Source of the DNA: a virus
Direction: 5' to 3' (one strand)
Length of the DNA: 50,240 bases
IMG/VR virus record: IMGVR_UViG_3300033571_001427
Span: 1 to 50,240 of that record
The notes below the pieces were generated by a model that was given only the letters and a program-made list of their open reading frames with translations, was not told the DNA's origin and did no database searches. Below, one piece after another: positions 7,471 through 30,844 of the stretch (the stretch's first letter is position 1; every line of letters starts with the position of its first letter). Both the position numbers and the translations under genes were made by a program.

Positions 7471-10400
7471 TTATCTCCTAATTTGGTACTCCATACCTTT
7501 CAAAGCTTTAACTGGATCAATTTGATTACCAGTAAATCCAAACAAGTATCCAAAGTCATTGAAAATTTTAGGTGCACCTTCTTTCTGCCATGAGTAAGGA
7601 CCTACATCTCTTGTATAGTAGGCACGGTTATCATTAGAAAGTAAGTGAAGTAAGTTAGTACCAAAATCTTTATACTTATCTACAACGGGACCTAATGTAG
7701 GTGCTCCTCCATTGTATACTAATCCTACATATTCTTTTGGATTTAAGAAAGTAATTGTTTCTTGTCTAGTACCCATTGTTGCAACAAGTGCATGGTTTAC
7801 TAACCAGCCACCAGCATTGAAGTTATCAGATAATAAATCACCACTTCTTTGGCGCATCTTTTCAAATCTTTCTTCATCATCCGGATCATAGTCAAATAAG
7901 TAAGCAATGATAAGAGCCAGTAATGTAATACTAATGCCTTCAGTTACTATCTTCTTAGCAGCATATGCTTCATCATCTGTCATATACATATTACCACTAG
8001 AGGCTCTAGAAACAAAAGACTTTAAGAATCTAGCAAATGATCTGTAATAACCTTCTGTCATATCTCCACTACGCATATTATATCTCAAAGGACTAAATCT
8101 ATTTACAAACATTCTTGTAAAGAATCTTCTTAATCCTGAGAACATTCTCCATACAGCATACTTATCAAGCATTACTTTATCCATTAAAGAATAAGCACCC
8201 TGTAAGTCGTTACTCTTTTCCTGTATAGTATTACGCATTGCTTTAAACTCTGCACCACCTGGAGCATATGTTTCATCAATACCTGGTTTTAGTTTAATAA
8301 TTCCCTGACCATCTTTCTCCCAAGCATCTATGTAATTGATCATATTTGTTTGGCCATTTACTGTTTGTGGTATCTTTTTAAAGATCATCATACCCGCAAA
8401 CAAAGAAAGTGTACCTTCATTTTCTAACCATTTTCTTGGAGCAGTATATACACCATTTGATATACCTTTACCTGCTCCAAACATTAAACTATCTGCTAAG
8501 TCAGTACCAAAGGATCTACCAAACTCAGTACCAAAACGTTCTTGGAATCTACCTTTGATAGGATCAAAAATCTCAACTAACTGATAGTCAATACTTTTCT
8601 CACCGGGATTATAGATATTAGCAGAGATGTCTGTCATTATCTTTAAAGCTTTTGACTGTCCTTGTAAATAAGAACGCTTGTTAAGATACTTACCACCACC
8701 TGATTCAATGATCATTTGTGTAACAGCACCACCAAAGTTTTTAACTGCAGATGGTAAAATGTTAAATGCAAACATTCCAAATGAAGATTGTGACTGTAAA
8801 ATATCTACAGCTTTACTTAATGTAGTAGGCTCAGATAACCAACCGGCTTTTGTTTGTCCTTTAAACTCTCTTTCAATAAGAGTATTGATTGCTTCAGCTC
8901 TTACGTTCTTACCTTTCTTTGCAACAAAAGATTTAATGTTGTTAGTTACCCAATTATAACCATTTACTTTAGAGGTATCCTTAATAGAATTCTCAGAGTT
9001 ATTTACAACTTTCTGTAAAGCTTGAGCAATAGGATTTAACTCAATAAGTTTTTTCTGGTGCTCTAACGAGAACATGTATTGCAATAGAGAGTACGGTACA
9101 TTTAATGATACCTGATCTATATCTAGTTTATATAATCCTTTTACAGGAATAGATGAGATCTCTTCGTCAAACATGTCAGCTCTAACTAAGTTAAACGCAT
9201 CATCATAGTTGAAGCCCTGATCAAAATCATCTTGAGATGTTGTTACAGCATCTTTAACTTGCTTAACAAAAGTCTTTACTTTCTCTGCACCTCTATTTAA
9301 ACTACCGCCTACTAATTCACTCTTAAGCTTTCTGAATCTTGGAATATCTAAATATAGTCTACTATACTTAGTTTTATCTTCCTGGAAAAGAAGTGTGTAC
9401 TTTGTAATAACATCAAGGACATTTGCTTTATCCGGAGAATTCTTTTGTAAATCATAATAAGCTTTATTGATATAAGAATCATCCTTTGCTCCTTCTGCTA
9501 CTGTTCTTGGTAACCAGTTACCACGGTTATCAACGTGCACCCCTACTTTACGCTCTACTTTACCGGTTGTTTTATTATACCCAGTTCTGTATTCTTTTTT
9601 AACAGCTCTTCTGTAAAAATCCATAGTAGGTATTCTATCTAAAGTAACTTCAGTAGTCTCACCTGTAGATGGATTTACATCGTTATACGTGTAAGTATTA
9701 TAGTATTCTAGATCAGAAGGAATTGTTACATTCCAAACATATAATCTTTCATATACGCGCTCATCCTTTTTAGTCTTACTGTTGTACTTTTCTGTTTCAA
9801 TGTGATTAGCAAGAAACCATTCTTTAAATTCAGGACTTGCTTTAAAGTACTTAGATAAGAATGCGGGCTTTAAAAAATTATCTGAGTTATCAGTATTAAT
9901 TTCACTAATAGTAAAACCAGCAAGTTTAGCAGGATCAATAGCCTCTAGATTATTATTAAATGCAGATAAGTAATCATCAGTTGGTTCTTTAGATTGCATA
10001 TCAGATAGCTGACTATATAAATTTAATAATGTCTTCTTAGTTAATCTATCTACAGCACCTTCTCCCTTTAATTTATCTAATTCTTTAAACTCTTCTTTAT
10101 CATTTATAGATGCTCTTCTGCTTTTAATTAACTTAGCTAGTTCTATGTATCTTTCAAACTGTAGTTTACTTAGACCACTAAAGCCAGCCATGTTGTCTTT
10201 AATTTTAATCAGTTCTTTCTGTAGTTCTTTTACCCGTTTGATTCTTTCTTCAGACATTTCTGATCCAACAATTTGTCCATCAGCATTTCTAAATCCTACA
10301 GATATATCAATAAGCTCTTCCCAAAGCTCATCTTGCTTTAGTTTACTAGCTGCATCTTTTGGTAAACCATCTACTATAGCTTTAATCTTATCAAGAATAA

Positions 10401-13029
10401 CTTTCTTTTCATCATAGAAGCTTTCTTTAATAGATGTTCTTGTATTAGCTTTAACCCAATCATTAACGTTATCTTCAAATTCTGTATCACTAGAGAGTAA
10501 ACCCTGATCTAAAAGATCTTGTTTAAATTGATTTAGCTTAAACTCAAATAGACCAGTGATCTCTTTATTTTCATAGAACTTACGAGACTCCTCTCTGTAC
10601 TTTTTTTCTATCTTAGCCATCTCTAATTCATCACCAGTTTTTAATTTACCGGCTTCATCACGTAGTGAAGATAACTGACTATACTTCTTCCATAGAATCT
10701 TCTTTTGTTCAAAAGCCTCATCTTCTGTAAGATCTTCAAATACCCTTTGATCTACATCAGCAATATCAGCTAGGATGTTTTGCTTTCTTTGATATATGAT
10801 AGAACCTAAATCAGAGTCATAGATTTTTTCTTTTGTATAAAACTCCGGTACAAACTCATCATGCATATAATCACGAGAGAATTGTCTGTACTGCTTGTTT
10901 AGTAATCTTGCTTTCTCTAAGTCTCCAACTCTTTTAGCATCTTCTATATCAAACTGAAACTGGCTTGTTACTTTTTCAAATGCTTTAAATGGATTAAGTA
11001 ATACTAACTTAGTAATGGTTTTAGGGTTACCATTCTCATCACGTACAATAACTTCTTGCTCAGATACTAATTCTTTCATTAGTTCTGTAATGTTCTTATC
11101 AGAGTAACCGGCTTGTTTTAATGCTGGTAATAACTCTCTTAAGAAATCATCTTTATTCTTCTTAGCCTTTAACTCTACATCAGTGTAGGCATTGTCTAAG
11201 AATACTGAGAAACTAGCAATAATAGGATCCGGTGAACTTGCAAATGATTCTACATAAGCAGATAAAGCATTAACATCACCACGCATTCCTGATAAGTAAT
11301 CATCAACTGTAGCACGGTTTAATTTTAATCTATCCCACTCTTCTTGTACCTCTCTTATTTGTTTTGGAGTAGCATTTTTAGATCTTAACTTCTCAAGCTT
11401 ATTAGTAAAGTATGTATCTACATTTTTAGATAAGGGCTCAAGTTGTTCTGTTAATACTCCACCAACTCCTTTTTTATAAATCTCATTAATAAGTCTGTCA
11501 GCTTGCTCTGCTTTCTTACCCATCTTAGCAAATAAAGCAAATAATGAACTATCTGTACGTAAACCGGCATCAGTTAAACCATTAGTAGTTTCTTGAATAA
11601 ACTTATTCCAGTTACGTAATAAGATGTCATAATAGAATGTTTGATTGATAACCTCTTTAGTATCACCAAGAGCTTTCATATCTGTTAACTTATCTATTAT
11701 TCTATCTAATAAGACATCTGTCTGTAGAGCGCTTCTTACACTAGCTGTAATTTGTTTCTCTCTCTTATCAACTTCATCTTTAAATTTCTTAACCTTATCA
11801 TCTACTGTAGTTGTTTCAGCAACACGTAAGTTATCTACTATATCTTTAAGAATAGATCTTCCTGATTCAGTTGTAATTGTGTCTACAACATCAGAATAGT
11901 TTTGGTTTGTCCTAATTCTATTTAACTGTGATCTAGAGTTAGAAAAGAATCTATTAACTACTTGAATAAGTACATCAGTATTAACTTTATCTAGGTCGTT
12001 ATACAGAGTTTGATTATTCTTTGCATATAGTACTAGGTCTTCCGGTGTAATAATCTCTGTTGTAAGAATAAAGTTCTCTCCAACTAACATATCAGCTAAC
12101 TGATTAAGTGTAGTATCTACAGATAACTTCTCAATCTTTATACCTTTACCAAATATTTTTCTGATTAACTGCTTAATAGCAAATAACAGGTTAGAGATAA
12201 ATGAATTAAATCCAGGAGTAGCAGATACTTTATTAGCTTTCTGTACAGCAGCTTGCTCTAAAGCTCTTACAAATACTTCCTGAGCAAAATTAGGGTTAGT
12301 AATATCATACTCAGGATATAGTTCAGATACAGTATTTACAAGTGTAGCGCCTTCTGGTGTACTAATAATCTGATTGTATAGATTATTAAACAACTCATAG
12401 TTACTTAAATATAAACTTCTAACTATAGGGTGTGCATATTCATGCAGTACGTGATTTAATTTAAACCCATTCTCAATAAGATATACAGTGTCCTGATAAT
12501 AAAATGCAGGCTCACCATTCCAGGGAGAAGTTGTATCTTTTGTAATCTCTGCGGCTTGCTCAGCAGATATCATCTTATAGTTAATACCTGTCTGAGATGC
12601 TAAGTTATTAGCAAACTTAGTTGCTATCTCTTGAGCTTTTACACCCTCTTGTAACTCTACAGATGGAAACAAACTATTTAAAAAGTCTTCATCAGCAACT
12701 CTGTAATAGTCAGGACTTTCATCAGTGATATTGTTTTTCTTTTTATACTCTTCCCAGTAATGATCAATAACAAAACTTGGAGGATTAACAAATACTCTAG
12801 CTGTACCATCCCATGTAATAAAGTCAGCCATATTGGTTCTCCAATACTGATTTAATCCTATTACTGCCTTTACAATAGATGAGGCACCGGCTCTTGTATC
12901 ACCGGCAGCATTAACATAAAATGTAGTTAAACTATCTGTTGGAGATAAGAACTGTCCAACCTCTTTAGCTAAAGCTTTTTTATATGTCTTTAGTACATCA
13001 TTCTGTATATCTAATCTACACTTACTCAT
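7471..13029 (-). CDS. Giant virion cargo protein with zincin (HExxH) motif
   Basis: I start at the ATG 13027-13029, which overlaps the upstream stop as ATGA, giving 1852 residues; an in-frame TTG at 13038 is less likely. The N-terminus reads MSKCRLDI. A zincin metalloprotease motif HEYAH is at about H196-H200, with a possible third ligand in the helix AQEVFVRALEQAA about 80 residues later. A short amphipathic module (about 275-315) is shared with the two upstream proteins. The middle third is long charged helices. The C-terminal third has hydrophobic patches (for example FGMFAFNILPSAVKNFGGAV) and one strong membrane-like helix (ITLLALIIAYLFDYD). In crAss-like phages such proteins are packed in the virion. 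A role in processing or in passing the envelope is inferred. Confidence 0.75.
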   Translation of the reverse strand: MSKCRLDIQNDVLKTYKKALAKEVGQFLSPTDSLTTFYVNAAGDTRAGASSIVKAVIGLNQYWRTNMADFITWDGTARVFVNPPSFVIDHYWEEYKKKNNITDESPDYYRVADEDFLNSLFPSVELQEGVKAQEIATKFANNLASQTGINYKMISAEQAAEITKDTTSPWNGEPAFYYQDTVYLIENGFKLNHVLHEYAHPIVRSLYLSNYELFNNLYNQIISTPEGATLVNTVSELYPEYDITNPNFAQEVFVRALEQAAVQKANKVSATPGFNSFISNLLFAIKQLIRKIFGKGIKIEKLSVDTTLNQLADMLVGENFILTTEIITPEDLVLYAKNNQTLYNDLDKVNTDVLIQVVNRFFSNSRSQLNRIRTNQNYSDVVDTITTESGRSILKDIVDNLRVAETTTVDDKVKKFKDEVDKREKQITASVRSALQTDVLLDRIIDKLTDMKALGDTKEVINQTFYYDILLRNWNKFIQETTNGLTDAGLRTDSSLFALFAKMGKKAEQADRLINEIYKKGVGGVLTEQLEPLSKNVDTYFTNKLEKLRSKNATPKQIREVQEEWDRLKLNRATVDDYLSGMRGDVNALSAYVESFASSPDPIIASFSVFLDNAYTDVELKAKKNKDDFLRELLPALKQAGYSDKNITELMKELVSEQEVIVRDENGNPKTITKLVLLNPFKAFEKVTSQFQFDIEDAKRVGDLEKARLLNKQYRQFSRDYMHDEFVPEFYTKEKIYDSDLGSIIYQRKQNILADIADVDQRVFEDLTEDEAFEQKKILWKKYSQLSSLRDEAGKLKTGDELEMAKIEKKYREESRKFYENKEITGLFEFKLNQFKQDLLDQGLLSSDTEFEDNVNDWVKANTRTSIKESFYDEKKVILDKIKAIVDGLPKDAASKLKQDELWEELIDISVGFRNADGQIVGSEMSEERIKRVKELQKELIKIKDNMAGFSGLSKLQFERYIELAKLIKSRRASINDKEEFKELDKLKGEGAVDRLTKKTLLNLYSQLSDMQSKEPTDDYLSAFNNNLEAIDPAKLAGFTISEINTDNSDNFLKPAFLSKYFKASPEFKEWFLANHIETEKYNSKTKKDERVYERLYVWNVTIPSDLEYYNTYTYNDVNPSTGETTEVTLDRIPTMDFYRRAVKKEYRTGYNKTTGKVERKVGVHVDNRGNWLPRTVAEGAKDDSYINKAYYDLQKNSPDKANVLDVITKYTLLFQEDKTKYSRLYLDIPRFRKLKSELVGGSLNRGAEKVKTFVKQVKDAVTTSQDDFDQGFNYDDAFNLVRADMFDEEISSIPVKGLYKLDIDQVSLNVPYSLLQYMFSLEHQKKLIELNPIAQALQKVVNNSENSIKDTSKVNGYNWVTNNIKSFVAKKGKNVRAEAINTLIEREFKGQTKAGWLSEPTTLSKAVDILQSQSSFGMFAFNILPSAVKNFGGAVTQMIIESGGGKYLNKRSYLQGQSKALKIMTDISANIYNPGEKSIDYQLVEIFDPIKGRFQERFGTEFGRSFGTDLADSLMFGAGKGISNGVYTAPRKWLENEGTLSLFAGMMIFKKIPQTVNGQTNMINYIDAWEKDGQGIIKLKPGIDETYAPGGAEFKAMRNTIQEKSNDLQGAYSLMDKVMLDKYAVWRMFSGLRRFFTRMFVNRFSPLRYNMRSGDMTEGYYRSFARFLKSFVSRASSGNMYMTDDEAYAAKKIVTEGISITLLALIIAYLFDYDPDDEERFEKMRQRSGDLLSDNFNAGGWLVNHALVATMGTRQETITFLNPKEYVGLVYNGGAPTLGPVVDKYKDFGTNLLHLLSNDNRAYYTRDVGPYSWQKEGAPKIFNDFGYLFGFTGNQIDPVKALKGMEYQIRR

Positions 13030-14777
13030 AATTTGCAACTATTGTATGTTTCATCTTGAACTTCAGGATATCCTATTGGGGCATATGTATTAACTGGTTC
13101 TGCATTCTCATCCGTATTAAAACTAGTAGTGCCATCAGCAAAAGAGAAATATCTATATCCAGCGTTTGTAAACTTAAATGCATTATCAATAAAGGGATCA
13201 TAGTAAATTAAATCTACTATATCTTTTGACCTACCCATTTTAACTTTAGCTTCAAAGATTTGTTTCCAGTCTTTAAAGTAGTTATCAAATATTTCAGGAT
13301 AGTTACCTTCTGCAGTACGTACAAAGAAATCAAAAGTATAAGCTATGATGTTACCTTTATCATCATACTGCTTTTTACCAGCTTCATCTAATATAGGTAT
13401 AATACCTTGCACGGTTACTGTCTCTTGATTAGCTTTATGGTCTTTACCAATAAATGCATTAGTCATCTCAAAGGTCGGATATTTTTCAGTAAAAGATTTA
13501 TACCAATTTTGATCTTCTATAAATTCTTTTACTTTAGCTGTAAACTCATTTTGGTCTTTAATAAATATTCCCTTATGATGTAACCAACCATAGAACTCAC
13601 TATAGTTTTCTTCTTTCTGAACAGTACCTAATTCTATAACCCCATCAATATCATGTATATCTTCATCTATAGCTCTATAGACGGTGCCATAATATCTTAA
13701 TACCATAGAACCACTTAACTTATAACCCATACTAGGATTATTAAGCATAAAGTCTATAATTGATTTAGCCTTTGCATCTTTAGATAAAGTTTGATTGTAC
13801 TTTTTTATCTCTAATTGTTTAAATGCTCCTAGATTATTTTTATCAGGAACTAATAAAGAGTCACCAACTTTTTCTACACCACGTGTAAAAATATTATAAT
13901 TACCTTTATAGATATCATCTACTAAATCTAATACTCTATCCTCTAGATCTTGCTGATTAAGTTTATCAAACTTATTTCTAAACAAGGACAAAAATAAATC
14001 ATGAATCTTATACCATAATTTTTGTAGAGCACTGGATTGTTTATCATAAGGATTATACTTAAAACCTCGTTTTTCAAAATACTGTTTATCTATATCACCA
14101 TTACCTCGCTCACTTCTAACAAATGTGGTTAAATCTCTTCCGTAAAAATCTGTAAGACCCTCAGTAATAAAATCTATAATTACTTGTTTGTGTGCAGTAA
14201 AATTAAAAGTTCTATCTGCATACATATCAACAAGATACGCTGGTAAATCACTATCTTTATCTAGATTTTCTTTAGTAAAAATATCTTCTACCTCTGTAGT
14301 ATCTTCTAACTTTAATCTATAAGATCTGTATAGATCTTTATACTTAGACCAACTTTTAATATTAAACCAAAGATTGTTATAGAGCTCACTCTTCTTACCT
14401 AAAAAACTAAGCATGATGTTAGCCACTTGCTTTGGTACAATTTCTTCAGCACCATCTCTAATAGCTAAATACTTTTGTAATAAATCAAATCCAGCTAAAG
14501 GATTACCGGGAACATTATTTAATACAGCTTCAGCAACATTACCACCCTCAACTTTAATATTAAGAGCCTTTACAAAATCTAGTAATATCTTATTAGTTCC
14601 TGCAGATAATTTAGGATTAAGAGGAATAGAATTCTTTTTTCTATTTACAATATTCTTATATACAGTAGCTGGAGGATTGCCCTCAAACTTATCCCAAAGA
14701 TAAGTAGCCATCTTTGTACCTTGGAATGCTTCTAACCTTTGAAAGTCAGGATCTGATTTTATAGGACAGGTTGCCAT
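13026..14777 (-). CDS. Cargo protein with pol-beta-like nucleotidyltransferase domain
   Basis: The start is the ATG at 14775-14777, which shares a base with the upstream TAA (TAATG); an upstream TTG at 14786 is less likely. The product is 583 residues and begins MATCPIKSDPDF. Residues about 240-290 contain a basic amphipathic module also found in the flanking giant proteins. The C-terminal half shows a nucleotidyltransferase fold: G356-S357, then D376-I-D378 (DIHDID), a later strand AYTFDFFV with a third acidic residue, and the KMGRSKDIVDL helix typical after the third strand. All three metal ligands appear to be present, so the domain may be active. Substrate (protein, RNA or nucleotide) is unknown. 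Position between two giant cargo genes suggests that it is packaged and delivered. Confidence 0.72.
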   Translation of the reverse strand: MATCPIKSDPDFQRLEAFQGTKMATYLWDKFEGNPPATVYKNIVNRKKNSIPLNPKLSAGTNKILLDFVKALNIKVEGGNVAEAVLNNVPGNPLAGFDLLQKYLAIRDGAEEIVPKQVANIMLSFLGKKSELYNNLWFNIKSWSKYKDLYRSYRLKLEDTTEVEDIFTKENLDKDSDLPAYLVDMYADRTFNFTAHKQVIIDFITEGLTDFYGRDLTTFVRSERGNGDIDKQYFEKRGFKYNPYDKQSSALQKLWYKIHDLFLSLFRNKFDKLNQQDLEDRVLDLVDDIYKGNYNIFTRGVEKVGDSLLVPDKNNLGAFKQLEIKKYNQTLSKDAKAKSIIDFMLNNPSMGYKLSGSMVLRYYGTVYRAIDEDIHDIDGVIELGTVQKEENYSEFYGWLHHKGIFIKDQNEFTAKVKEFIEDQNWYKSFTEKYPTFEMTNAFIGKDHKANQETVTVQGIIPILDEAGKKQYDDKGNIIAYTFDFFVRTAEGNYPEIFDNYFKDWKQIFEAKVKMGRSKDIVDLIYYDPFIDNAFKFTNAGYRYFSFADGTTSFNTDENAEPVNTYAPIGYPEVQDETYNSCKL

Positions 14778-17700
14778 TAGCCACAAATTTCTTTTAATAT
14801 TTCACCAATTGTATCTTCATCATATCCCATTTCTTCTAGCATTTTAGAATTAATAGCAGATGCTGGATAAATGTTACCATCAACTAAAGTTACCTCTTTT
14901 TCTTTTACAACTTGATCCTCAGTATCTGGGGCACTATCAGCATCTTCTTCAAAGACCTGATTGATAGGTTGCACAGAATAAATATACTCTTTAAATTCCG
15001 GATCTTCTGCAAACACAGGATTTTTATACCCAAAGTTATAGTATAACTCTTTAAATAACTCCATATAAGCTGGCTTATCAATATTAGGATCATCATTTAA
15101 GATACCATATCCTTCTTTGTTAAAGAGTAATGTTTTACCAGCCTCATATAATTCTATAAGAGTAGTAACAGTATCCTCTACTAACTTCATATTGTTAGCA
15201 GTATCTGCAGCATTTAAGTATTTAGCTTTACCAACAAATGATTCAAAGATTGGTAATCCTATAGTAGTACCAGTTACTTTACTAGCATTACCTAAGTAAG
15301 TATCTGAAGCAATAACATTAGTTCCGGTATTATCTTTTGCTTTACTATATATACCAACTAGACCTGAGTATTTATTAATCAGTCCTATAGTACGCATCTT
15401 ACCATAAGAATAAGTATATACTCTAGGAGTTAATGTTGAAGATGTACCCTCTGGTAATTTAGGAACTTCATCACCCATCTTTTCAATAGTATTATCTACT
15501 ACATAGTTTTTAAACCTGTACTTAGTAATGTTATTTCTAGAGTTCTGCTCACCAAACTTTTTATAGTATCTGTATAAAGCAGTATTACCCTTATCACTTT
15601 CTAATACTTTAGTGAACTTATCAATGTTTTCTTTAATGATATCTTTAAAGTTATTACTAGATAAGATAGGAACAAATGATAAGTATGACTTATTCATACC
15701 AGACTGCATGAATCCAAAGATAGATAACTTGTTAAAGAACTCAGAAATCTCTCTATTGATAATAGGATCAGGATTCTTTTCTACATTTACATCAGATAGT
15801 TCTTCAAACTGGATATTCATTTCTTCTAAGAAATCAGGATCTTTTGTATCACCAGTTAAACGTAAGTTTTTAATTGTTGCATTCTTAGTAGGAGTCTTAA
15901 TCTGCTGCGAATCATAAACCAGGTAATCAAACAAACTATAGTCTTTATTTTCTATAGCATTCTTTACCATCTCAAACTTATCTGGGAAACTATTGGTACC
16001 AAAGAACATTGACTTCAGATTGTATACATTATGTAAAGCATCTTGAACAAGACCTTTTTCATAGATATCATCTGAAAAAATACCTTTATCTCTAGTAGCA
16101 CGTAAGTATTCTCTCTCTAAAACAAAAGCAGTATACTGTTTTTCAGAACTAAATAAAGGTATAACATCTGTACGTTTATCAGCTGGTAATTTTGCTAAAC
16201 CTGTTTCTTCATACTCAGCCTTAGAATAAGTTTTATTATTATACTCCTCACGTAACTTGGCTCTATCTAAATAGATCTTACCTTCATAGTATACAGCGCT
16301 TCTTTTAAGACCTCTTACCTTCTCTACATCAATAGAATCACTTACAGCATAACCTTTGTAATCTTTTACTGTATTGATATCTACAGATCCAATACTATTC
16401 TGAATGATAAACTGAAGAAGATCATTTCTAAATAAATCTACAAATGATTCTACATCTTTATACTCTTCACGGATGATATTATAGTTGTTGTTAATTATAT
16501 CAGTTAAGTAAGTATTTATGGTATCACTTGCTCTTAATGGGAAGTAATCTTTAAATACGTTTAAGATATAATCCTGTATAAAGAATGGAGCAATAGAAGA
16601 TTGATTTTCCATTCTTGTTGTAATCTCTTGAGGTAATCTATTACCCTCCTCTAATTGTTCTAATTTACTTAAACGACTCTTTGCTTGGAACAAGTTACCA
16701 GACTTCTTAGTATCAACGTTAGTAGAAGAAGAAATTTCCCGCATTACTTGTGCTTGATCCTCTACTTCTAAGAAATGTATAAAGGATAACATAGCAAGAG
16801 GACTTCTTTTCTCACCATTCTGTACAACCTTTTTAATATTCTCATTAGAGATAGCATAAACATTATAAGCTTTAGTCATAATGTCTACTGCTGCAGTTAA
16901 AGATTTTTTAGAAGCCAATGGATTCTTCATTGTATTTGCATTATACAATTGCTTAAGTAAGAAAGGATCCTTTATTTTTTTCTTTAACTCAAGTTTATGC
17001 TCAGGATCAAATAAACCATATTTGTTTATTACATACTGTTTTGCTTTAAACTTTAAGAAACCAGGACCTTTAGCACTATCTCCAGAAGCATCTAATGATT
17101 TAGTGTACATACCATTTAATACTCTGTATGCAGATATATAATCTCTAATTAAAGGTTGTGATAAGAAATAAGAAGCAGTTTCAACATCAACACCGGCTTG
17201 TAACATATACAACAATGTAGGTGTTAACTCGTAGATAGCATTCATATCAAATACCCAAGAGTCTTTTTCAACATCCACCCATCCATTCATAAGCTGAGAT
17301 ATTACATCTGAGATATAAACAGCTGAATCTTTAGAGTTAAGATCTGATAAAGATATTTTACCATCCTCTGTTTTGTTATGTTTAAATAGAATACGATTCT
17401 TAGCAGTTCTTGTCTTTCCTTTACTATCTAAGAAAGTATAAGTCTTATTTAAATATGCACCAACACGGTTAAGAAGTACTGAATATTTGTTTGATACAGC
17501 ACCAATACCTAAAGTTAATTTACCAATGTTATTAGACTCATGCTTATATAAGTTATTCTGAGTCTCAAACATTCTTGTTGGAGAAATAATAAATTCAGAA
17601 CTCTGGAACTCAGCTTTAGCTCTTGGATCATATTCTCTATTATATTTTGCTAATTCATCTGCAATTGGTTTAACAATATCTGTTTCGTTAGGAGTAATAA

Positions 17701-20700
17701 GCTGAACAAAGTTTTCCTTAATCTCCATTATACCAATCATAGACTTAATGATCTCATTCTCAATACCTCTTATAGTGGTATCATCTGTAGTCATCATAGC
17801 TTCTTTACTAAATAAATCATCTAATAAAGACTTATACTCAGAATCTGTAGTAGTATCTTTAGCAATACCTATATTAGGCATTAGAATACTTAACTTATCA
17901 ATATCAAAGTCACCACCAGACTTAGCAACTAGTTCAGTTGGAACAATTACAATAGATCCGGCTTCTGGAGGTAAGAACTCACCAACCTCCATGTATTCAA
18001 TAGAGTTAAGACCTTGTACAGGAATACGTACACCGATCATTTTGATGGTTTCTCCGTTAATACTTTGCCATAATGTATCTTTTAGCATTTCATTAAGTCT
18101 AGCTAATGTATTTACTGGCTTACCATCTGTATGAATAGTAGTTAAAAGCTTTAAGAAATCACCTTGTAAAGCAATCTTTACTTGCATTGGTGTAATCTTA
18201 CCGTCTACTATATCATAAAAAGCAAGACCATTTGTACCATACTTTAATAGATCTTCTTTAGATGGATTACTAAACTTAGGATTCTCAAATCCGGAACTAG
18301 ATACTTGTACTAACTGCTCACCCCTTACAGTAGGTCTTACAATCTTTCTTTCAATGATTGCAACAAGCTGCTTCTCAATAGCATTAGAATTGATAATACT
18401 ATCAAAGTCATACTTTAAACTACCATCCTCATTTACATCTAGAATATCCATCTGATGTTCAGGAACCTCTAAACGTACTAATTCTTTCTGGATAGCTTTA
18501 ATTAAATCTTTCGGATCTCCTTTAATTAGTTTACCATCAGCACTAAATTCTAGGCCTACCTCTTTAAATAACTTCTGCTTATAGAACTTTACATAGTTAT
18601 CAATAGCTTTCTCATATCGCTCTACAATTGGTTTATATTCTTTCTTAAGAGGTTTACCATTAGCATAAAGGTTAGTCTCAATAATTGTACGTAACTGAGA
18701 AGACAATGTAACTTTACCTTTAAAGTATGGAGCAATGTCTAACTGATTCTTAAAGAAGTTTAAGTTAATACCATTTATAGGATACTCACCAGAATATAAT
18801 GTGCGCTTTGTAGCGTCCGTATACATATTAGGAATAGTACCATCTTCTAATGTAATATTAGAGATCTTACTACCTGACTTATATAATGCATAAGATATAC
18901 CTTGCTCAAGCAATTGCTTATGAAACTGCTCTAAGTTAGTATCCTTAATAACTGAAGGAATCAAAGGCATCAATGAAAACTTATGTAATCCAGAAACATT
19001 TAGTTTCTCTGTTTTTAAAGGACCATAATAACTGGCTTTTAATACTGGGAAGAACTCAGATGCTTTTCTAGGATCTACAGAAGCAGGATCATTAATAATC
19101 TGGTTATACAAATCTTCTTGTATATCAGACCATTTATTTAAAGATCTTAAGAAGTTACGATAGAAATCAAAAGTAATCCAACCCTGACCATCACCTTCAG
19201 TAATCTTTTTATAAGGTTTTAAAATCTTTTCAGCTCTATCTTCACTTACTCCAAGACTAGTTAATAACTGTTTGTAGTGACTATAGTATACTGATTCTGG
19301 TTCTACATCATCAAGAACTGTAGTTTTAACAGCTGAATCAAATCTTAACTTTGGTAAACCTTCTTTCTCAGCATATGTATTGTTACTTGTATTATTTAAG
19401 TAATCAATAGTGTACTTATCTAAAATACTAAAGTCTCCTGTAGAAGCAATAGCTGCATTACGTTTAGGAAACTCTTCTTTGTCATGCTTAAACTGAGAAG
19501 CATCACCATAAAATAGTTGTGTCTCAAAGTTATTAAACCATGAGTTATACGTATAAACCTCATTTACTAACTCTAATTGATCTTGAGGATTAATAGCATA
19601 TATATTAGTTTTATCTAAACCTTTACCAATTCTAGTTTCTTCAGCAATCTTATTTCTAATTTCAGGACTTAGTAATACACTTCCAGTAACAGCACTAATC
19701 TGAGTCCAGATCTTATAATTAGTTTTAATCTGATTATCAAAATATTTACCTGAATCTTTTTTAATAGCTTTCTCTAGTTCTTCAGAGTAAACTATATCAT
19801 CTATAGAATCTGCATTATCTACTAACTCGTAAAGCTTAGCTTTAGTAGGACCAGATAATACAGAATCAAAAGCCATAATCTTAGTACCATTCTTCTTAAA
19901 ACTATCTACGTTTTGTAGTGAAGGAATGTTTTTAATGTACCAGATTCTTTCTAATTCAGCAGATAAGTAGTTTAAGATAATAGGCATTGCAGAATCATGT
20001 CCATATCTAGCTACATCTTTAATAGGTAGTATTAAATTATCTACTCCAGATTCACCGTAGTATTTATTCATACCAACACCATAAGAAGAACTTTTACTAG
20101 CGTGTCTAGGAAGCTCTGGTGTTTTACCTAAGATAATGGCATGTACATCAAACATAAACTTATCATACTTATTAAGTTTGTTTGTTTTAATACCTTCAAC
20201 AGTAATACCATTAAAGTCTCTACGGATACCACTTAAGTTCTCTAAACTAAGAATAACATCTTTTCTTCTATTACCATTAGCATCAAAGAGAGAGTTAATG
20301 ATATAAGAATGTTTAGCATAAGGATTATTATTAGGATGGTAAACACTTAAGTATTGAAACTCAGGATCTTGTAACATCTGATCCATAAACTCAAGTTTAT
20401 TAAGACCATCAATGATCTGACTTAAAGAGTTTCTTAATGATGTTTCATACTCCATGTTACCTTCAGGATTCATGATACCAGTACTAAAATCACTAGAAGT
20501 ATATCTTGCCTGCAGAGTTAAAAGTTTACTTACATATCCCGCTTGATTACCCTGCTTAGGATCCCTAAAGAACTTAATAGGGTTAGTAATTATAGTTTTA
20601 TTTTCTTTAGCTTTTTCTAAAGCTTCTATTAAATAATCAAATGCAATATGTGTCTCCTTGCTTTTTCTATCTACTACAGCATTCTCTAGTGCTGCTCTTA

Positions 20701-23700
20701 AAGTAGGATTATTATCCAAATAGAAACCTATAGCTTTTAAAAAGTCAAATACATTATACTTATTAATTAATGAAAAGTCTTCAAGTACCTTATCTATATT
20801 TAAAATAGGTGTTGAACCTTTCTTTCTAATTACATACTTAGATTTACTAACTAGGAACTTAGAATTAAAAGTATTAATGATCTTTGTTGTATCACTAGTA
20901 GCTCTCTGAATGTATGTAGAAACTTTAGTTGAACTAGGTTTTCCTTCCTCTTCTTCAATAGAAGTAGAAAGCCTGTGCTCTATAATAGGAGTTACTGTTT
21001 TATTAAATGTTTGAGCAAATCCTAACCAACGTTTAAAGTTAGCATTATTAATTTGAGATTGACTTGGATCTCCCAACTTAGCAATTAACTGTGCTACTTC
21101 TGGAAAACTTTCTTGTAAGCCAATTAACTTAGTATATATCTCATCAAAACTATTTGAGTTAATTAAGGTTTTAGATATGGTACTCCAAGCTTTACCAAAC
21201 TCAACAAGCTTATTAAAACCTAATCTGTTCTTGATAGGTTCTCCGTTTGCTTTTACTTGGTATAAACTCTTAACCATATAAAGAGCTTGTTTAGAAGCTA
21301 ACTCTTTTAATGATTTATCATTACCGGTACGGTCAAAACTATCTATACTTGGATCTGACTTATCTTCTTCTGCTTCAAGAACTTTTGCTTCAAATGCTAA
21401 GTACTTAGATTTTTGTCTATGATAAGCAATAACACCTGATTTTTCTTTACCAGAAATAACGTTATCTAATTCACCAAAGTTATTAATAGCATACTCTAAA
21501 ATCCGAATATTATTTCTATCTACAGTATCAGCACCATCAGGATCATTTTCAACTCTAGCAATTGTATCAGTTAAAATATCTTGAAAGTACTGCTTAGTAT
21601 TCTTATATAAGAAATCTAATGCTCTCTTATCACTATAAATAGCTGAAACGTTTAATCCAGTAGCATTAATAATTTCTGAAAAAGCACCATCAACTGATTC
21701 ATTGATTAACCTACTATCTGATAAACTAATACTTGGTTCTTCTTCATTTAATGGATCTATACCTCTATACAAGTTACCAAACTGCATGTTCTCTACAGAG
21801 TACGCATACTCAAATAGATTACCCAATCTTAAGTTATCATATAACTCTTTTACTAATGGTACAACAGTGGGGTCTACAATATCAGTTTGACCGGTAAAGA
21901 AAGCTTTTACAATACGCCATAATTTCTGGAAGATGCTCTCATTAGGTTTAACAAGAATTTTCTTACCATCAGATAACACATAACCTCTAAAGTCTTCAGC
22001 TAAGTATTCTTCTACTTGCTTATCTGTAGCATTAGCTAAATACTTAACTCCTTTTCTTACTGAATTATATAAGCTTTGCTTTTGATCTTGTGTTAATAGT
22101 AACTGAGAGAATGCATGCCATGCTTCATGGTATAACGTAGTGTAATCTTTTTTACCGGCTTTTGTAAATAATGTAATACCACTAGAACTAAATAGTCCCA
22201 ATGCATCTGAGTTAGTTAAAGCAATTGCTTCATTAACCGGAATCATTGTAGAAAGTTTTACTTTCTCACCATCTACCATAACCTCTAAAGATCCATACCA
22301 ATCTTTAATCTTCTTAATCTCTTCAGGTGTAGTATTTACAGTTTTAAATCCGGCTCTTTTTAGACTATTATTAATATCATTAATAAGGTCCATATCAAAT
22401 GTACCTTTAAAACCAGAGGGTGTAGTATTTACATTCTGATTCTTGATAACAGTTTTAGGTTTAGCTTTTACTTTAGCTTTTGGTTTGGTTTCTTTAGTCT
22501 CTTCTTCAGCTGGTACCTCTTGTTTCTTTTCAGTTGGATACATTTCTTCTAATGCCTCTACTGTAAATTCATACTGCAGACTGGGATTAAAAGTTTTAAT
22601 AGTACCATCATTACGTAATACAGTAAATACTACGGTATTCTGTCTTACAAAGTCATTATAGTTAACCTTACTTTTTGCAAACTTTCCTGACTTATAGTTA
22701 GGTACATCTATCTTACCATCAATGTTATCCTTTGATATGTTTATATAAGCAGTAGCTAATTGCTCTGCTATAAAATCTTCATCAGCTAAATCCGGATTTT
22801 CAGAATCATATATCACATCCTTATCTGAATAGATACTTAACAATGGTTTCTTAGTAGTATTATCATAACTGATATTAAAAGTACCATCATTAATATTATA
22901 GATGTTCTCTAGTATTCCAAACTTTACAGCGGTTGATACTTTAGGATCTACAATAAGCTTTGCAAGATTCTTAGCTAACTCAGCAGATGTTTTATTTGGA
23001 AATATCTGTACTAGATCACCAAACTTATCTAACTTCAAATATGTTTTACCAAAGTTATCAAACTCTATATTACTAATAGTATCTGAAGTAACATTACTTA
23101 CCTCTGTTAACTTAACAGGAGTATCAGATAATAAGTTAAAACCAGATCTACCACCAACTATATTTAAAGGTAAAGCTAAAGTCTTATTACCTATGAAGGT
23201 CTTAATAAACTTATCTACTAACTGTACTTCTTTAGTTCTTTGATCCTCTAATTGTTTTCTTAAGACATCAGCATCTGGAATTTCTACTCCAGCTTTAGCA
23301 GCCCTAGCAATAGTTCTTTCTACAAGTTCATCTATAGGTGCAAGACTGGTTTCACCACTCTCTATAAATATAAATTCTCTTTTACCCTTATTAGTGTTAG
23401 GGGTAATGAAATCAGTTACGGGAATAATAGCACCTTCTGCTTCATCCTGACCCTCAATGTTTGTAATATAACCTCTGCTATTTACAAAGATTTTCTTATA
23501 TCCATCTTTAGTAAGTGTGGCAAAAGATAACTGTGTAATTCTACTACCTCTAGATGTAATTATATCAGTAGGAATCATATAGATCCCTTTGATCTTGGTA
23601 CCGTTAGATGCGGTTATCTCTATTTGTTCAGCACTATTTAGATTTTGTTTACTTAATCTATCTAGAATAGAACGCATAAATGCATATGTAGCAATCTTTT

Positions 23701-24220
23701 CAGGATCTGGATCTGCCTCACCTATTAGTTCACCCTCATCATTAACCTCTTCTTCTTGACCAGTGGTAACTAGACCGGTAGTATGCTTTGCTTGAAATTC
23801 TATATCATTACTTAATTCTGTTGCTTTCTCTAATTGAGAACTAACAATACCAGCTTTCTTTCTTACTTGCTCTAGTCTTTCTGGACTTAACTCTTTTACA
23901 GCAAGGTATTTTTCTACAACAGTAACATCTTCAAAGCTATCTCTAAGATCTAAAACATCATCAGTACTAATTTGATTATCTCTAAGATGCTTACGAACAT
24001 TAGGATTTTTGTTAACAATAGTAGCAACTATTCTTGGAAGTAACTGTATATAGGTTAATCCTAAACTAGGATCATTACTGGCAGCAACTACTTGCTCATA
24101 AAATTGATTAACGTAATCTTTTAAATTATAAGGTGTTTTGTTATCTGTAATTACAGATAAATCTTTAAAAACTTTAGCATAAAACTGCTGCTGTTGTAAT
24201 GCGGATAGTGAGCAATTCAT
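14777..24220 (-). CDS. Giant virion RNA polymerase with zincin domain
   Basis: This 3147-residue protein is the probable virion-packaged, single-chain RNA polymerase of crAss-like phages, which enters the host to transcribe early genes. The metal-binding loop DFDID is at D2104-D2106-D2108, preceded by a strand-rich stretch with MIGVRIPVQG and IVIVPTELVAKSGG as expected for a beta-prime-type double-psi barrel. A lysine pair in YALYKSGSKIS (about K1781/K1785) is my candidate for the beta-type barrel. Upstream, a zincin motif HEAWH lies at H698-H702 with a likely third ligand in EEYLAEDFRGY. A Lys/Glu/Pro linker at about 570-605 separates the N-terminal region. The best-known relative, phi14:2 gp66, is, as I recall, near 2200 residues, so this protein has extra parts. 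The N-terminus reads MNCSLSAL. Confidence 0.85.
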   Translation of the reverse strand: MNCSLSALQQQQFYAKVFKDLSVITDNKTPYNLKDYVNQFYEQVVAASNDPSLGLTYIQLLPRIVATIVNKNPNVRKHLRDNQISTDDVLDLRDSFEDVTVVEKYLAVKELSPERLEQVRKKAGIVSSQLEKATELSNDIEFQAKHTTGLVTTGQEEEVNDEGELIGEADPDPEKIATYAFMRSILDRLSKQNLNSAEQIEITASNGTKIKGIYMIPTDIITSRGSRITQLSFATLTKDGYKKIFVNSRGYITNIEGQDEAEGAIIPVTDFITPNTNKGKREFIFIESGETSLAPIDELVERTIARAAKAGVEIPDADVLRKQLEDQRTKEVQLVDKFIKTFIGNKTLALPLNIVGGRSGFNLLSDTPVKLTEVSNVTSDTISNIEFDNFGKTYLKLDKFGDLVQIFPNKTSAELAKNLAKLIVDPKVSTAVKFGILENIYNINDGTFNISYDNTTKKPLLSIYSDKDVIYDSENPDLADEDFIAEQLATAYINISKDNIDGKIDVPNYKSGKFAKSKVNYNDFVRQNTVVFTVLRNDGTIKTFNPSLQYEFTVEALEEMYPTEKKQEVPAEEETKETKPKAKVKAKPKTVIKNQNVNTTPSGFKGTFDMDLINDINNSLKRAGFKTVNTTPEEIKKIKDWYGSLEVMVDGEKVKLSTMIPVNEAIALTNSDALGLFSSSGITLFTKAGKKDYTTLYHEAWHAFSQLLLTQDQKQSLYNSVRKGVKYLANATDKQVEEYLAEDFRGYVLSDGKKILVKPNESIFQKLWRIVKAFFTGQTDIVDPTVVPLVKELYDNLRLGNLFEYAYSVENMQFGNLYRGIDPLNEEEPSISLSDSRLINESVDGAFSEIINATGLNVSAIYSDKRALDFLYKNTKQYFQDILTDTIARVENDPDGADTVDRNNIRILEYAINNFGELDNVISGKEKSGVIAYHRQKSKYLAFEAKVLEAEEDKSDPSIDSFDRTGNDKSLKELASKQALYMVKSLYQVKANGEPIKNRLGFNKLVEFGKAWSTISKTLINSNSFDEIYTKLIGLQESFPEVAQLIAKLGDPSQSQINNANFKRWLGFAQTFNKTVTPIIEHRLSTSIEEEEGKPSSTKVSTYIQRATSDTTKIINTFNSKFLVSKSKYVIRKKGSTPILNIDKVLEDFSLINKYNVFDFLKAIGFYLDNNPTLRAALENAVVDRKSKETHIAFDYLIEALEKAKENKTIITNPIKFFRDPKQGNQAGYVSKLLTLQARYTSSDFSTGIMNPEGNMEYETSLRNSLSQIIDGLNKLEFMDQMLQDPEFQYLSVYHPNNNPYAKHSYIINSLFDANGNRRKDVILSLENLSGIRRDFNGITVEGIKTNKLNKYDKFMFDVHAIILGKTPELPRHASKSSSYGVGMNKYYGESGVDNLILPIKDVARYGHDSAMPIILNYLSAELERIWYIKNIPSLQNVDSFKKNGTKIMAFDSVLSGPTKAKLYELVDNADSIDDIVYSEELEKAIKKDSGKYFDNQIKTNYKIWTQISAVTGSVLLSPEIRNKIAEETRIGKGLDKTNIYAINPQDQLELVNEVYTYNSWFNNFETQLFYGDASQFKHDKEEFPKRNAAIASTGDFSILDKYTIDYLNNTSNNTYAEKEGLPKLRFDSAVKTTVLDDVEPESVYYSHYKQLLTSLGVSEDRAEKILKPYKKITEGDGQGWITFDFYRNFLRSLNKWSDIQEDLYNQIINDPASVDPRKASEFFPVLKASYYGPLKTEKLNVSGLHKFSLMPLIPSVIKDTNLEQFHKQLLEQGISYALYKSGSKISNITLEDGTIPNMYTDATKRTLYSGEYPINGINLNFFKNQLDIAPYFKGKVTLSSQLRTIIETNLYANGKPLKKEYKPIVERYEKAIDNYVKFYKQKLFKEVGLEFSADGKLIKGDPKDLIKAIQKELVRLEVPEHQMDILDVNEDGSLKYDFDSIINSNAIEKQLVAIIERKIVRPTVRGEQLVQVSSSGFENPKFSNPSKEDLLKYGTNGLAFYDIVDGKITPMQVKIALQGDFLKLLTTIHTDGKPVNTLARLNEMLKDTLWQSINGETIKMIGVRIPVQGLNSIEYMEVGEFLPPEAGSIVIVPTELVAKSGGDFDIDKLSILMPNIGIAKDTTTDSEYKSLLDDLFSKEAMMTTDDTTIRGIENEIIKSMIGIMEIKENFVQLITPNETDIVKPIADELAKYNREYDPRAKAEFQSSEFIISPTRMFETQNNLYKHESNNIGKLTLGIGAVSNKYSVLLNRVGAYLNKTYTFLDSKGKTRTAKNRILFKHNKTEDGKISLSDLNSKDSAVYISDVISQLMNGWVDVEKDSWVFDMNAIYELTPTLLYMLQAGVDVETASYFLSQPLIRDYISAYRVLNGMYTKSLDASGDSAKGPGFLKFKAKQYVINKYGLFDPEHKLELKKKIKDPFLLKQLYNANTMKNPLASKKSLTAAVDIMTKAYNVYAISNENIKKVVQNGEKRSPLAMLSFIHFLEVEDQAQVMREISSSTNVDTKKSGNLFQAKSRLSKLEQLEEGNRLPQEITTRMENQSSIAPFFIQDYILNVFKDYFPLRASDTINTYLTDIINNNYNIIREEYKDVESFVDLFRNDLLQFIIQNSIGSVDINTVKDYKGYAVSDSIDVEKVRGLKRSAVYYEGKIYLDRAKLREEYNNKTYSKAEYEETGLAKLPADKRTDVIPLFSSEKQYTAFVLEREYLRATRDKGIFSDDIYEKGLVQDALHNVYNLKSMFFGTNSFPDKFEMVKNAIENKDYSLFDYLVYDSQQIKTPTKNATIKNLRLTGDTKDPDFLEEMNIQFEELSDVNVEKNPDPIINREISEFFNKLSIFGFMQSGMNKSYLSFVPILSSNNFKDIIKENIDKFTKVLESDKGNTALYRYYKKFGEQNSRNNITKYRFKNYVVDNTIEKMGDEVPKLPEGTSSTLTPRVYTYSYGKMRTIGLINKYSGLVGIYSKAKDNTGTNVIASDTYLGNASKVTGTTIGLPIFESFVGKAKYLNAADTANNMKLVEDTVTTLIELYEAGKTLLFNKEGYGILNDDPNIDKPAYMELFKELYYNFGYKNPVFAEDPEFKEYIYSVQPINQVFEEDADSAPDTEDQVVKEKEVTLVDGNIYPASAINSKMLEEMGYDEDTIGEILKEICG

Positions 24221-24224
24221 ATTA

Positions 24225-27200
24225 TTAACAACCTATATTATTAAAGAAATCATTATTTACATCTTTTTCAGACTTGTTATTAGTCTGATCTTCAAGTTTC
24301 TTAGTGGCTTCCTCATTATCTAAGAAGTCATCTATATTCTGTGAGTTAGTCTCAATAATCTTTTTCTCTTCTGCTGAAGGAGAAGGAACATCTTTAGTAC
24401 CAACTACTACATTGGACTCTGTATCATATAATGATTTTACCATTTTTGAGAAATCTTTCTTTAAAATTGTAATGCGTTTATTAGCATCTTTTGCCGGAGT
24501 CATACGCTCACCATACAAAGGTACTACAGTTAACTTAGTTGAAGTAACTTTCTCAACCAAACCAAACTTATTATCCCCAAATACTAATACATCTCCCACT
24601 TTAACATTCTCATACTTTACAGACTTACTCAACTCTTGTTTACGAGACTCAATTGCTTTATTAACTGCATCAATATTAGCTGGATCTTCAGCCAGTAAAT
24701 CTAAATCTAGTTCTTCTAGCATAGTATCTAACTCACCAAGTGACTTGGCTTTACTAATTGTATCTAGGATTGGTTGTAATGGATCAGTAACTACTTCAGC
24801 TTCTATAACCGGTTCTTCTTCTACAGGTTCTTCTGTTTTAACAGGTTCAGCTTTAGGTGCTTCTGCTGGTTTTGCTGGAGCTTTCTTTTCATTAAATGCT
24901 TTAACATCTGCAGCATTCTCAGGATCTTTAAAGAACTTAGTAATAATTCTTCTAGCTGAAGCTGTACGTAAGAATCTATCTAAAGGTAATTCTGATTCAC
25001 CATCAGCTTCTCTAGCAGAATTCTGTTGAGTTAATGCAGATCTAATTAAACCTTGTAGCTTAACTGGTAATGTATTAAACTGTTTAACTGATTGAATTAA
25101 AGGTACACCCTCTTCTTGCTGTATCTCATCTGATACAGCGGGTTGATCTTCTACCACTTCTTCTTCTGTAACTACTTCTTCTGCTGGAGCTTCCTCTGTT
25201 ACTTCTTCAGTTACAATACCATCAAACTCGTTAATAATACTAAAGATAAGTAAAGATCTTGGATCAGTCTTATCAAACTCTCTATCTGAATTAAAATCTA
25301 TAAATACAACATCTAGATCATTAATAATAGTTTTTACAAACTCATCATAATCTTTACTTACATCTTTAGGTAAAGAAGATAGTTTTATACCATAACCTCT
25401 ATCAGCTAGATACTGAATAAAATCTCTAACCTTTACAGCATTAATAAAAGACTTTCTAGCATTTTGCATATAAGCAACTTGCTTTTCTTGTCTATATTTT
25501 TGTTGTTCTACAAGTCTATTTACATAATCATAGAAACTCTGTGGATCATATAATGAATTCAGATTCTCTGTAAATATATTTACATCATCTGATAATGAAT
25601 AGTAATCAGTTATTATATTATAAGCTTCCGCAGCTTCAGTTTTAGAGATAGTTGTACCTGCCTCTTGTGCTAAAGTATTAAAGTATTTAATAAAAGCATC
25701 TCTTAAAAATCTTTTATTTTTTAATTGTTCAGAATCAGATACATCTCCAACTTTCTCAAGATTTGTTTTATATAACTCTAATGCTTTCTTCTTAGCTTTT
25801 TTATAATTAAGAATCTTTAAAGTTTCTTTATCTGTAGAACCGGTTAATGATTTGATTTCACTATCTAATAAATCTAACTCTTGTTCAAGATTGTTAGAAT
25901 TTAATAAGGGTGTAATATCTGAGTATGTTAATTTACCAATTGTACCAATAGCTGTAAGTCTATCAGTAAGCTCACCCATTCTTTTCTGGGCTTGCTCTCT
26001 ACCATGTAAACTAAATACAGCAACCTTTCTTGCTTCTTCAAATGCTTTATAGTTTATTACTTCTTTAACATAAGCATCTTTAGTTTCAGGATCTGATAGA
26101 TTAGTTCTTCTAAATCTATTAGGATTAAAAGGATTTTTATAATCTGAGAATTCTTTATACTGCTCTTTAACTTGTTTAGCTCTTTCAATACTAACATCTA
26201 ATACCTTTAAAGCATCTTCATCAGTTACATCTTCAGTTAAATCAAAGGCCTCTTTTAATTCAGAACCCTTCATATCTTTTAGATTCTCTAGCTTTTGTAT
26301 TAAGAGATCAAATTTACCAGATTCTAATGCTGTATAAATACTATTAAACCGTGCCATATCTTTTAGATCATGAAAAACTTTCTCATCAAAGTTCTTCCTA
26401 GCCTCTACCATGTCTGTACCTAATCTAACTTGCGTTAGTAGATTTTCCATATCTAAAGTTAAAACCTTCTGACCATTCTTAATAGCATCATCTAATTCAG
26501 TAACTATACTTTTAAATCTTTCTTGTTCTGCTTTATATAATTGATTATACTTTTCAGGATCATTTTTAATGTAGTTATAATAAACATTAGAACCCGCTCT
26601 TCTTGATACATTAGCTAAATTACCAGCAATACCGGTAAGACCACCCATCAAAAATCCTGACGCAAATACTTCAAGACCTTGCATAGAAGCTTGTCTCTTA
26701 GTATTCTCATAGGCATCAGCCAAGTAAATCATAATACCACCAGCTTCTGGGGTATCATATAATCTATCATAATAGTTCTTAGAAGCACCAGCCACAACCT
26801 CTTGAGAAATTTCCTGAATACCTTCAGATAAGTTTCTCTTAAAGTATTGGGCTCCAAAGCTTAAATACTCTTTAGGTTTTAATAATTTCTTAGCTGCTTC
26901 TTTTGCAGTTAAAACTGTAGCACCTTCTGTACTAGCAATAATCTTTTCTCCAGTTAATGCTGATCTAGCAATAACATCATTTGTTGGAGCATTTAGCATT
27001 GCTGCTTTACCCTTAAATAAGTTATTAAAGGTGATAGCATTTGTAAGATATATAAGCGGTGTGTTAATAGCACTAGTGGTAAAACCAGCATCACCAGCTA
27101 AACTATATATCCGGTTCATCTCTTCCTGTTCTGGATAGTATCCGTTCTCAGAAACAAACTGATTTATCTTATCATCAATAAATTCATTCTTAACAGCACC

Positions 27201-30790: not shown

Positions 30791-30810
30791 TATCTATATT
30801 ATAAATATAA

Positions 30811-30818
30811 CAAATATA
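30811..30818 (-). promoter_or_regulatory. Internal -7 promoter box ahead of the RNAP cargo genes
   Basis: The minus strand reads TATATTTG, an exact TAnnTTTG match, 20 bases upstream of the ATG at 30790. The 54-base gap that holds it is the longest in the whole late block from 49705 to 7471. A TTTG -33 element is not seen at the standard distance. The site would let the RNAP cargo genes be transcribed apart from the tail genes. Confidence 0.4.
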
Positions 30819-30844
30819 AAGTTAAACTATTAAACCTCTAATAT

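Follow-up and report, generated by a model that had tools for sequence, protein, structure and literature searches.

A conserved zincin-like domain upstream of a crAss-like virion RNA polymerase, and a probable string of cargo chains coupled through terminal cysteines

The virus record analysed here (the window, the whole stretch of 50,240 bases) encodes a giant chain in which a conserved zincin-like domain lies directly upstream of a crAss-type virion RNA polymerase (RNAP), and this chain appears to be one of four that are probably coupled by disulfides, head to tail, into a single cargo string, a reading to which we assign a probability of roughly 0.6. The pattern of terminal cysteines at the junctions between chains is near certain; the bond between these cysteines, its order and release, and a cut by the zincin are what we infer from the sequences. 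The features concerned are collected in Table 1.

Table 1. Features of the four-chain block in the window.
Feature	Position	Strand	Basis or remark
1329-aa chain, upstream of the RNAP chain	24225..28214	minus	sole Cys is the last residue (24228-24230); N-terminal Cys absent
Catalytic chain of virion RNA polymerase (by homology) with zincin-like domain, 3147 aa	14777..24220	minus	ORF, homology
N-terminal module, residues 1 to about 620	22361..24220	minus	sequence, profile alignment
Zincin-like domain, residues 636-811	21788..22315	minus	conserved motif, alignment
HEAWH, residues 698-702	22115..22129	minus	motif
E738, presumed third zinc ligand (EExxAE)	22007..22009	minus	alignment
RNAP part, residues 952-2907	15500..21367	minus	profile-profile alignment with crAss001 gp50 276-2222
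DFDID catalytic motif, residues 2104-2108	17897..17911	minus	motif, alignment
Cys3 of 3147-aa chain	24212..24214	minus	one of its two cysteines
Cys3146 (penultimate) of 3147-aa chain	14783..14785	minus	other of its two cysteines
583-aa chain, ATG start	13026..14777	minus	Cys at residue 4 (14766-14768) and third from end (13035-13037)
1852-aa chain, ATG start, last in block	7471..13029	minus	sole Cys is residue 4 (13018-13020)

The 3147-residue open reading frame on which the original prediction centred is borne out, with an ATG start, internal stops absent, and a location on the minus strand, which had been left unstated; copies of it occur in six IMG/VR contigs at 74–100% identity. By homology this frame is the catalytic chain of a crAss-type virion RNAP, as had been proposed, with support coming from the solved phi14:2 enzyme (PDB 6VR4), which is the sole PDB match (E = 2.1e-33) of a profile built from 11 sequences with phi14:2 excluded. 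A tblastn search with the chain returned 131 phage records, most of them by name uncultured gut, Bacteroides, and Flavobacterium phages, with identities of 20–29% among the 40 matches listed. The matches include other Crassvirales and phi14:2 g066, named in its record as the catalytic RNAP subunit, which aligns to residues 1479–2360 of the window chain, and profile-to-profile alignment with crAss001 gp50 (local hhalign) delimits the RNAP part given in Table 1. The catalytic DFDxD is present in the region homologous to phi14:2 gp66, with DFDID at residues 2104–2108 as claimed. From the protein's own composition DxDxD is expected 1.0 times by chance, compared with 0.012 for HExxH, so that DxDxD alone proves nothing and it is the surrounding alignment that carries weight, with 11 invariant columns around DFDID common to 15 sequences. 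Judging by this homology, the RNAP part presumably contains two double-psi beta barrels, and the chains of the window phage are probably packaged in its virion. Whole-chain phmmer against the PDB returned nothing at E ≤ 1, although the profiles matched, and scans of the three giant ORFs against PHROGs and Pfam gave nothing above the curated cut-offs (best E 0.17 and 0.0073).

The 3147-aa gene sits in a block of giant genes with an RNAP-associated chain after it, and the 1852-aa chain matches the chain following the RNAP in cr4, cr118, and cr6. Phi14:2 gp66 is homologous to the window chain in the catalytic region, where the Q, RxP, and GxDFDxD residues are invariant, and likewise has a cysteine at both residue 3 and the penultimate position, however it lacks HExxH, its RNAP stands apart from the upstream chain, and it is 2180 aa long, in agreement with the size near 2200 residues given in the original prediction. 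The N-terminal module of the window chain is weakly collinear with the Suoliviridae giant chain and has a Lys/Glu/Pro-rich charged stretch close to its end, with the length ahead of HExxH varying by up to 62 residues between near relatives.

The HEAWH motif is likewise where it had been placed, at residues 698–702, and lies 1406 residues ahead of DFDID (about 1400 had been stated), whilst the plausible third glutamate ligand corresponds to E738 within VEEYLAEDF, which is kept in relatives. In order to avoid choosing by zincin motif, contigs were gathered by polymerase motif, and the best 80 of 481 confirmed ones were used. The zincin domain is present in 73 of these 80, in the same open frame as the RNAP in 72 and, in L140, in an ORF ahead of a break inside the RNAP; six of the other seven contigs end before that place, and the seventh, L174, has a separate RNAP with no zincin within its 20.8 kb. 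The original prediction had named loss of HExxH and of the third ligand from homologs as evidence against a fused protease, and both are kept in the RNAP-selected set, with YHExxH, EE, and AE found in 73/73 zincin-bearing contigs, many of which are related. Residues H, E, H, E, A, E, and F are common to 13/13 sequences drawn from the window group, Suoliviridae, and Steigviridae, with the invariance of a further alignment, whose sequences were picked by motif, not counted as evidence. A metal site in this zincin-like domain is very likely.

Of the zincin reading, the conservation of the active-site residues stands, whilst a matching fold was not recovered from structure models. Two AlphaFold domain models (pLDDT 72 and 77), the second a trimmed version made because the first had doubtful strands, gave no Foldseek match at E ≤ 0.001, with zincins absent among the best 50 of 118 and the best 50 of 89 PDB matches and, for the first model, among the 50 VIA-align matches listed. 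The periplasmic protease PqqL is among the PDB Foldseek matches listed (E = 2.9), and the BFVD search gave an unnamed top match (E = 0.044) followed by the crAss phages cr4_1 (0.067) and cr7_1 (0.15), with a SprT-like protein at E = 3.2. The best PDB profile matches covering the motif are the Pro-Pro endopeptidase/Zmp1 zincins, which are weak at E = 0.014–0.02 and weaken to 0.17 with a larger alignment, and the top profile match overall is a designed helical protein (E = 0.0014) outside the motif. The HExxH and EExxAExF of PPEP-1/Zmp1 thus align by profile with those of the window chain, however a fold match is absent. Pfam searches with the 13 zincin rows returned 17 scattered families, each matched by at most two of the rows (best E 0.0004, Ponericin).

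A second HExxH (HEYAH, 12430–12444) occurs near the N-terminus of the 1852-aa last chain, with counterparts in phi14:2 g065 (HEIMH), cr4 gp27 (HEILH), cr53 gp56 (HEIVH), cr125 (HELVH), and cr273 (HEMIH), and none in cr118 gp15, cr50 gp60, or crAss001 gp49; this is perhaps a second zincin-like family.

Across the Crassvirales, zincin and RNAP share one chain in 9/9 Suoliviridae examined (cr4, cr6, cr118, cr10, cr50, cr53, cr113, cr273, and cr125), and in cr108 the zincin likewise lies between a joined upstream module and the RNAP. In crAss001, cr128, cr85, and Dulem virus 41 the same zincin is found near the C-terminus of the gp47-type chain with the RNAP separate, the RNAP gene of crAss001 lying on the strand opposite to gp47, and in eight Intestiviridae (crAss002, cr110, cr11, cr8, cr3, cr271, Rudgehvirus, in which GenBank notes ZnMc, and C0531BW4) a divergent HExxH falls within the final fifth of the equivalent chain. 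The RNAP is separate, with no zincin in the corresponding place, in phi14:2, DAC15, cr111, contig L174, and cr116, the last of which carries HExxH motifs elsewhere, at 635, 877, and 2199 of its RNAP chain and at 175 of its gp47-type chain. The joined 4419-aa chain of Flavobacterium phage Fpv20 has no HExxH ahead of its catalytic motif at 3240, only after it; in this chain (L193, 8797–22056) the sole cysteine is penultimate and DYDID replaces DFDID. A rule that a separate RNAP means no zincin was rejected, with 12 of 17 separate cases having one, and what remains is a tendency: the zincin goes mostly, not strictly, with joined chains, and this contrast is confounded by kinship. The idea that the motif of crAss002 gp32 is of another type was also dropped, as GenBank names and five more Intestiviridae show the same place.

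The link between zincin and RNAP follows a theme that is already known: GenBank uses the name 'putative RNAP associated protein fused to zincin protease' in relatives of p-crAssphage, and a zincin (MPTase) domain is part of N4-like virion RNAPs according to Iyer, et al. (2017, PMC5512222). N4 gp50 has HELVH at position 2228 and zero cysteines, and thus resembles the window chain in combining a virion RNAP and a zincin motif in a single giant chain, however it lacks the terminal cysteines. We take the N4-type virion RNAP to be a T7-like single-subunit enzyme of a fold unrelated to that of the crAss type, the window RNAP belonging by profile to the phi14:2 family. The p-crAssphage type (Intestiviridae) similarly has a zincin-type HExxH at the joint ahead of the RNAP, however its zincin occupies a late position in the upstream chain, its RNAP and last subunit form one chain, and the motif is divergent and unmatched by the zincin profile of the window group. 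A plasmid search with crAss001 gp47 gave no match.

This distribution bears on two further roles for the zincin. In line with the earlier reading, it might cut the chain that carries it, either ahead of packaging or following it, and free the RNAP, in which case the cysteines would be secondary; we consider this a serious possibility, although one with somewhat less than even odds. It is favoured by the zincin being kept between the modules of joined chains (the 72 same-frame IMG/VR contigs, the nine Suoliviridae, and cr108), by the contrast with separate RNAPs, where 12 cases have a zincin and 5 do not, and by the zincin-bearing P1 DdrB, which is processed before packaging (PMC5512222). However, those same 12 phages, crAss001 among them, keep the zincin on a chain already separate from the RNAP, Fpv20 is joined without a zincin ahead, kinship confounds the contrast, and the N4 virion RNAP is packaged unprocessed (PMC5512222). 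Furthermore, a reducing gel of crAss001 virions (PMC10172136, PMC6235969) shows several bands, including ones of 150, 270, and over 300 kDa, with gp47, gp49, and gp50, of 262.5, 154.5, and 276.9 kDa respectively (PMC10172136), identified in the virions, which suggests little cutting if the presumed assignment of bands to proteins is right. Alternatively, the zincin may be an effector that enters the host and acts on its proteins, an option that Iyer, et al. (PMC5512222) list for polyvalent proteins and that is consistent with a presumably injected chain and a conserved active site. With no host target known and a mostly fixed position beside the RNAP, we regard this role as unlikely.

The evidence for a coupled string comes from the cysteines. 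The 3147-aa chain has two in all, at residue 3 and the penultimate position, and partner cysteines are present at 3/3 window joints. The same arrangement is seen in phi14:2, where g067 (1797 aa) has one cysteine, its last residue, g066 has two (residue 3 and penultimate), and g065 (1421 aa) has one (residue 3). Among 20 phages including the window, with a junction scored by a cysteine within 6 residues of the downstream chain's start and another within 10 of the upstream chain's end, both cysteines are present at 29/29 junctions, whilst 0/40 outer ends have one; if each chain's own cysteines were placed at random, the product would be near 1e-119 with kinship ignored, the junctions not being independent as the phages are related. 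Start sites were shifted to a downstream Met for w1855 (the 1852-aa chain), w586 (the 583-aa chain), crAss002 gp33, the cr110 RNAP, and C0531BW4 chain 2. The count omits cr10, whose next gene lies beyond the part of its genome that was analysed, and cr108 and cr116, in which the RNAP gene is interrupted; the outer joints of the latter two fit the rule, and at the interruptions cr108 lacks terminal cysteines, whilst the first piece in cr116 happens to end in one. The interruption in cr108_1 (L009, 18500–18850) breaks the RNAP gene at the catalytic motif, with gp54 ending GSD and gp53 beginning LYDIDKMY some 290 bases farther along, as though the motif held an intron.

Five fresh phages taken as a test gave 5/5 on the N-side (C0531BW4 counted after its start was moved to MSC), 4/5 on the C-side, and 0/10 outer ends, the exception being cr273_1, in which the nearest cysteine of the upstream chain is 50 residues from the end; C-side cysteines also lie farther in for cr10_1 (11 from the end) and crAss001 gp50 (9). 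The IMG/VR contigs extend the pattern, with the N-terminal sign (Met with Cys soon after) at the first Met in 130/136 zincin-RNAP ORFs, two of the six misses having it at a later Met and the other four being long gp47-type chains, and with a cysteine in the last 8 residues of 119/120 zincin-RNAP chains. After clustering of the RNAP chains, the N-terminal sign is present in all members of 43/47 clusters at 50% identity and 24/28 at 40%. Pairs of adjacent closed ORFs (at least 200 aa, at most 200 bases apart) were scored for an N-terminal sign, here a Cys within 2–5 residues after any Met among the first 60, and a C-terminal sign of Cys in the last 10; of 106 unique pairs, 83 have both, 22 neither, and one is discordant, its downstream ORF having Cys at position 10 (Fisher 7e-22, kinship ignored).

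Cysteines are otherwise rare in many of these chains, with 84 of 96 unique complete zincin-RNAP chains (mean 3687 aa) having no inner cysteine and 12 having one or two, in a count that omitted chains without the N-terminal sign. Depletion is not general across the Crassvirales: Suoliviridae and Intestiviridae chains hold more, with up to 15 in all in the Intestiviridae RNAP. For N4-like phages, whose injected proteins likewise lack cysteine, it has been suggested that cysteines would hinder passage through the tail (PMC3915230). It could be argued that cysteine is simply avoided in injected proteins and that the terminal ones are inherited and functionless, as N4 vRNAP, gp51, and gp52 contain no cysteine at all. 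We find this highly improbable, given that the terminal cysteines persist in chains with few inner ones and arise at new joints, as in contig L033, where a separate 602-aa chain with a cysteine at both ends precedes a zincin-RNAP chain starting MRLC. Farther upstream in the window, 855-aa and 1207-aa chains (28223–34468) have zero cysteines and are likely other cargo proteins.

The behaviour of the cysteines when chains fuse points to pairs. In Intestiviridae, where RNAP and last chain are fused, only the gp47-end and RNAP-start cysteines remain, and in Suoliviridae, where the zincin chain is joined to the RNAP, only those of the RNAP end and last-chain start remain; the fusions thus favour pairs and indicate which chain would pair with which. 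Both TGT and TGC encode them, and the rule holds in crAss001 although gp47 lies on the opposite strand, so that the rule acts on proteins. Extra chains of 244–907 aa, with a cysteine at both ends and none inside, follow the RNAP chain in L052, L057, L144, and L161. The 583-aa chain of the window is absent from its close relative L005/L026, in which the last chain comes directly after the RNAP chain, and this carriage therefore looks dispensable. The terminal cysteines might instead be separate tags that dock each chain to a common virion partner as a packaging or loading signal, and the recurrence of a short N-terminal signature (Met with Cys at residue 3–6) on unlike chains would suit this. 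A tag borne by each chain should not, however, vanish exactly at the outer ends (0/40) or shift when chains fuse or split, and we consider tags improbable.

A metal or iron-sulfur centre bound by the joint cysteines and other residues, in place of a disulfide, would make a metal joint; two thiols per joint suit such a centre, and the gut hosts are anaerobes, a setting less favourable to disulfide formation, which counts against the disulfide. By eye, however, no other recurrent metal ligand was noticed beside the cysteines in the chain ends, and a metal joint seems to us quite improbable. Several Crassvirales (L194, L191, and L183) encode small thioredoxin-like proteins near the block, an observation of relevance if disulfides matter.

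In the disulfide-coupled string that we favour, the four chains of the window would follow one another in the order 1329 -> 3147 -> 583 -> 1852 aa, with the C-terminal cysteine of each bonding the N-terminal cysteine of the next, most simply as a disulfide. The whole polymerase complex would then leave the narrow tail as one flexible string in fixed order, after which the reducing host cytoplasm would uncouple the chains, whilst for modules joined by a peptide bond the zincin would probably cut near its own position after delivery. We know of no virus or secretion system described so far in which separate proteins are strung together like this. The proteins gp47, gp49, and gp50 have been found in crAss001 virions (PMC10172136, PMC6235969), which also hold solved inter-subunit disulfides in other parts, and the crAss001 atlas proposes ejection with partial unfolding, the order being set by packing and interactions (PMC10172136). 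The word 'cysteine' is absent from the main text of PMC10172136, and the terminal-cysteine rule is undescribed within the limited literature searched.

For the order as a whole, we judge the chances to be evenly balanced that the polymerase of Crassvirales enters the host as a covalent train, in which two to four giant and mostly near cysteine-free proteins would be linked by single terminal disulfides, C-terminus to N-terminus, with the first chain pulling the rest through the tail and the host cytoplasm uncoupling them; accessory carriages would be insertable, and joins made by gene fusion would be served by the adjacent zincin. A podovirus-type particle has to pass proteins through the tail channel in order and ahead of the DNA, and the cysteine rule would offer a simple physical answer to the ordered delivery of several proteins of 150–500 kDa. 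The rule predicts end-to-end contacts between chains in abundant gut phages, and the zincin conserved at the upstream joint is a feature that ties crAss-like phages to N4-like ones.
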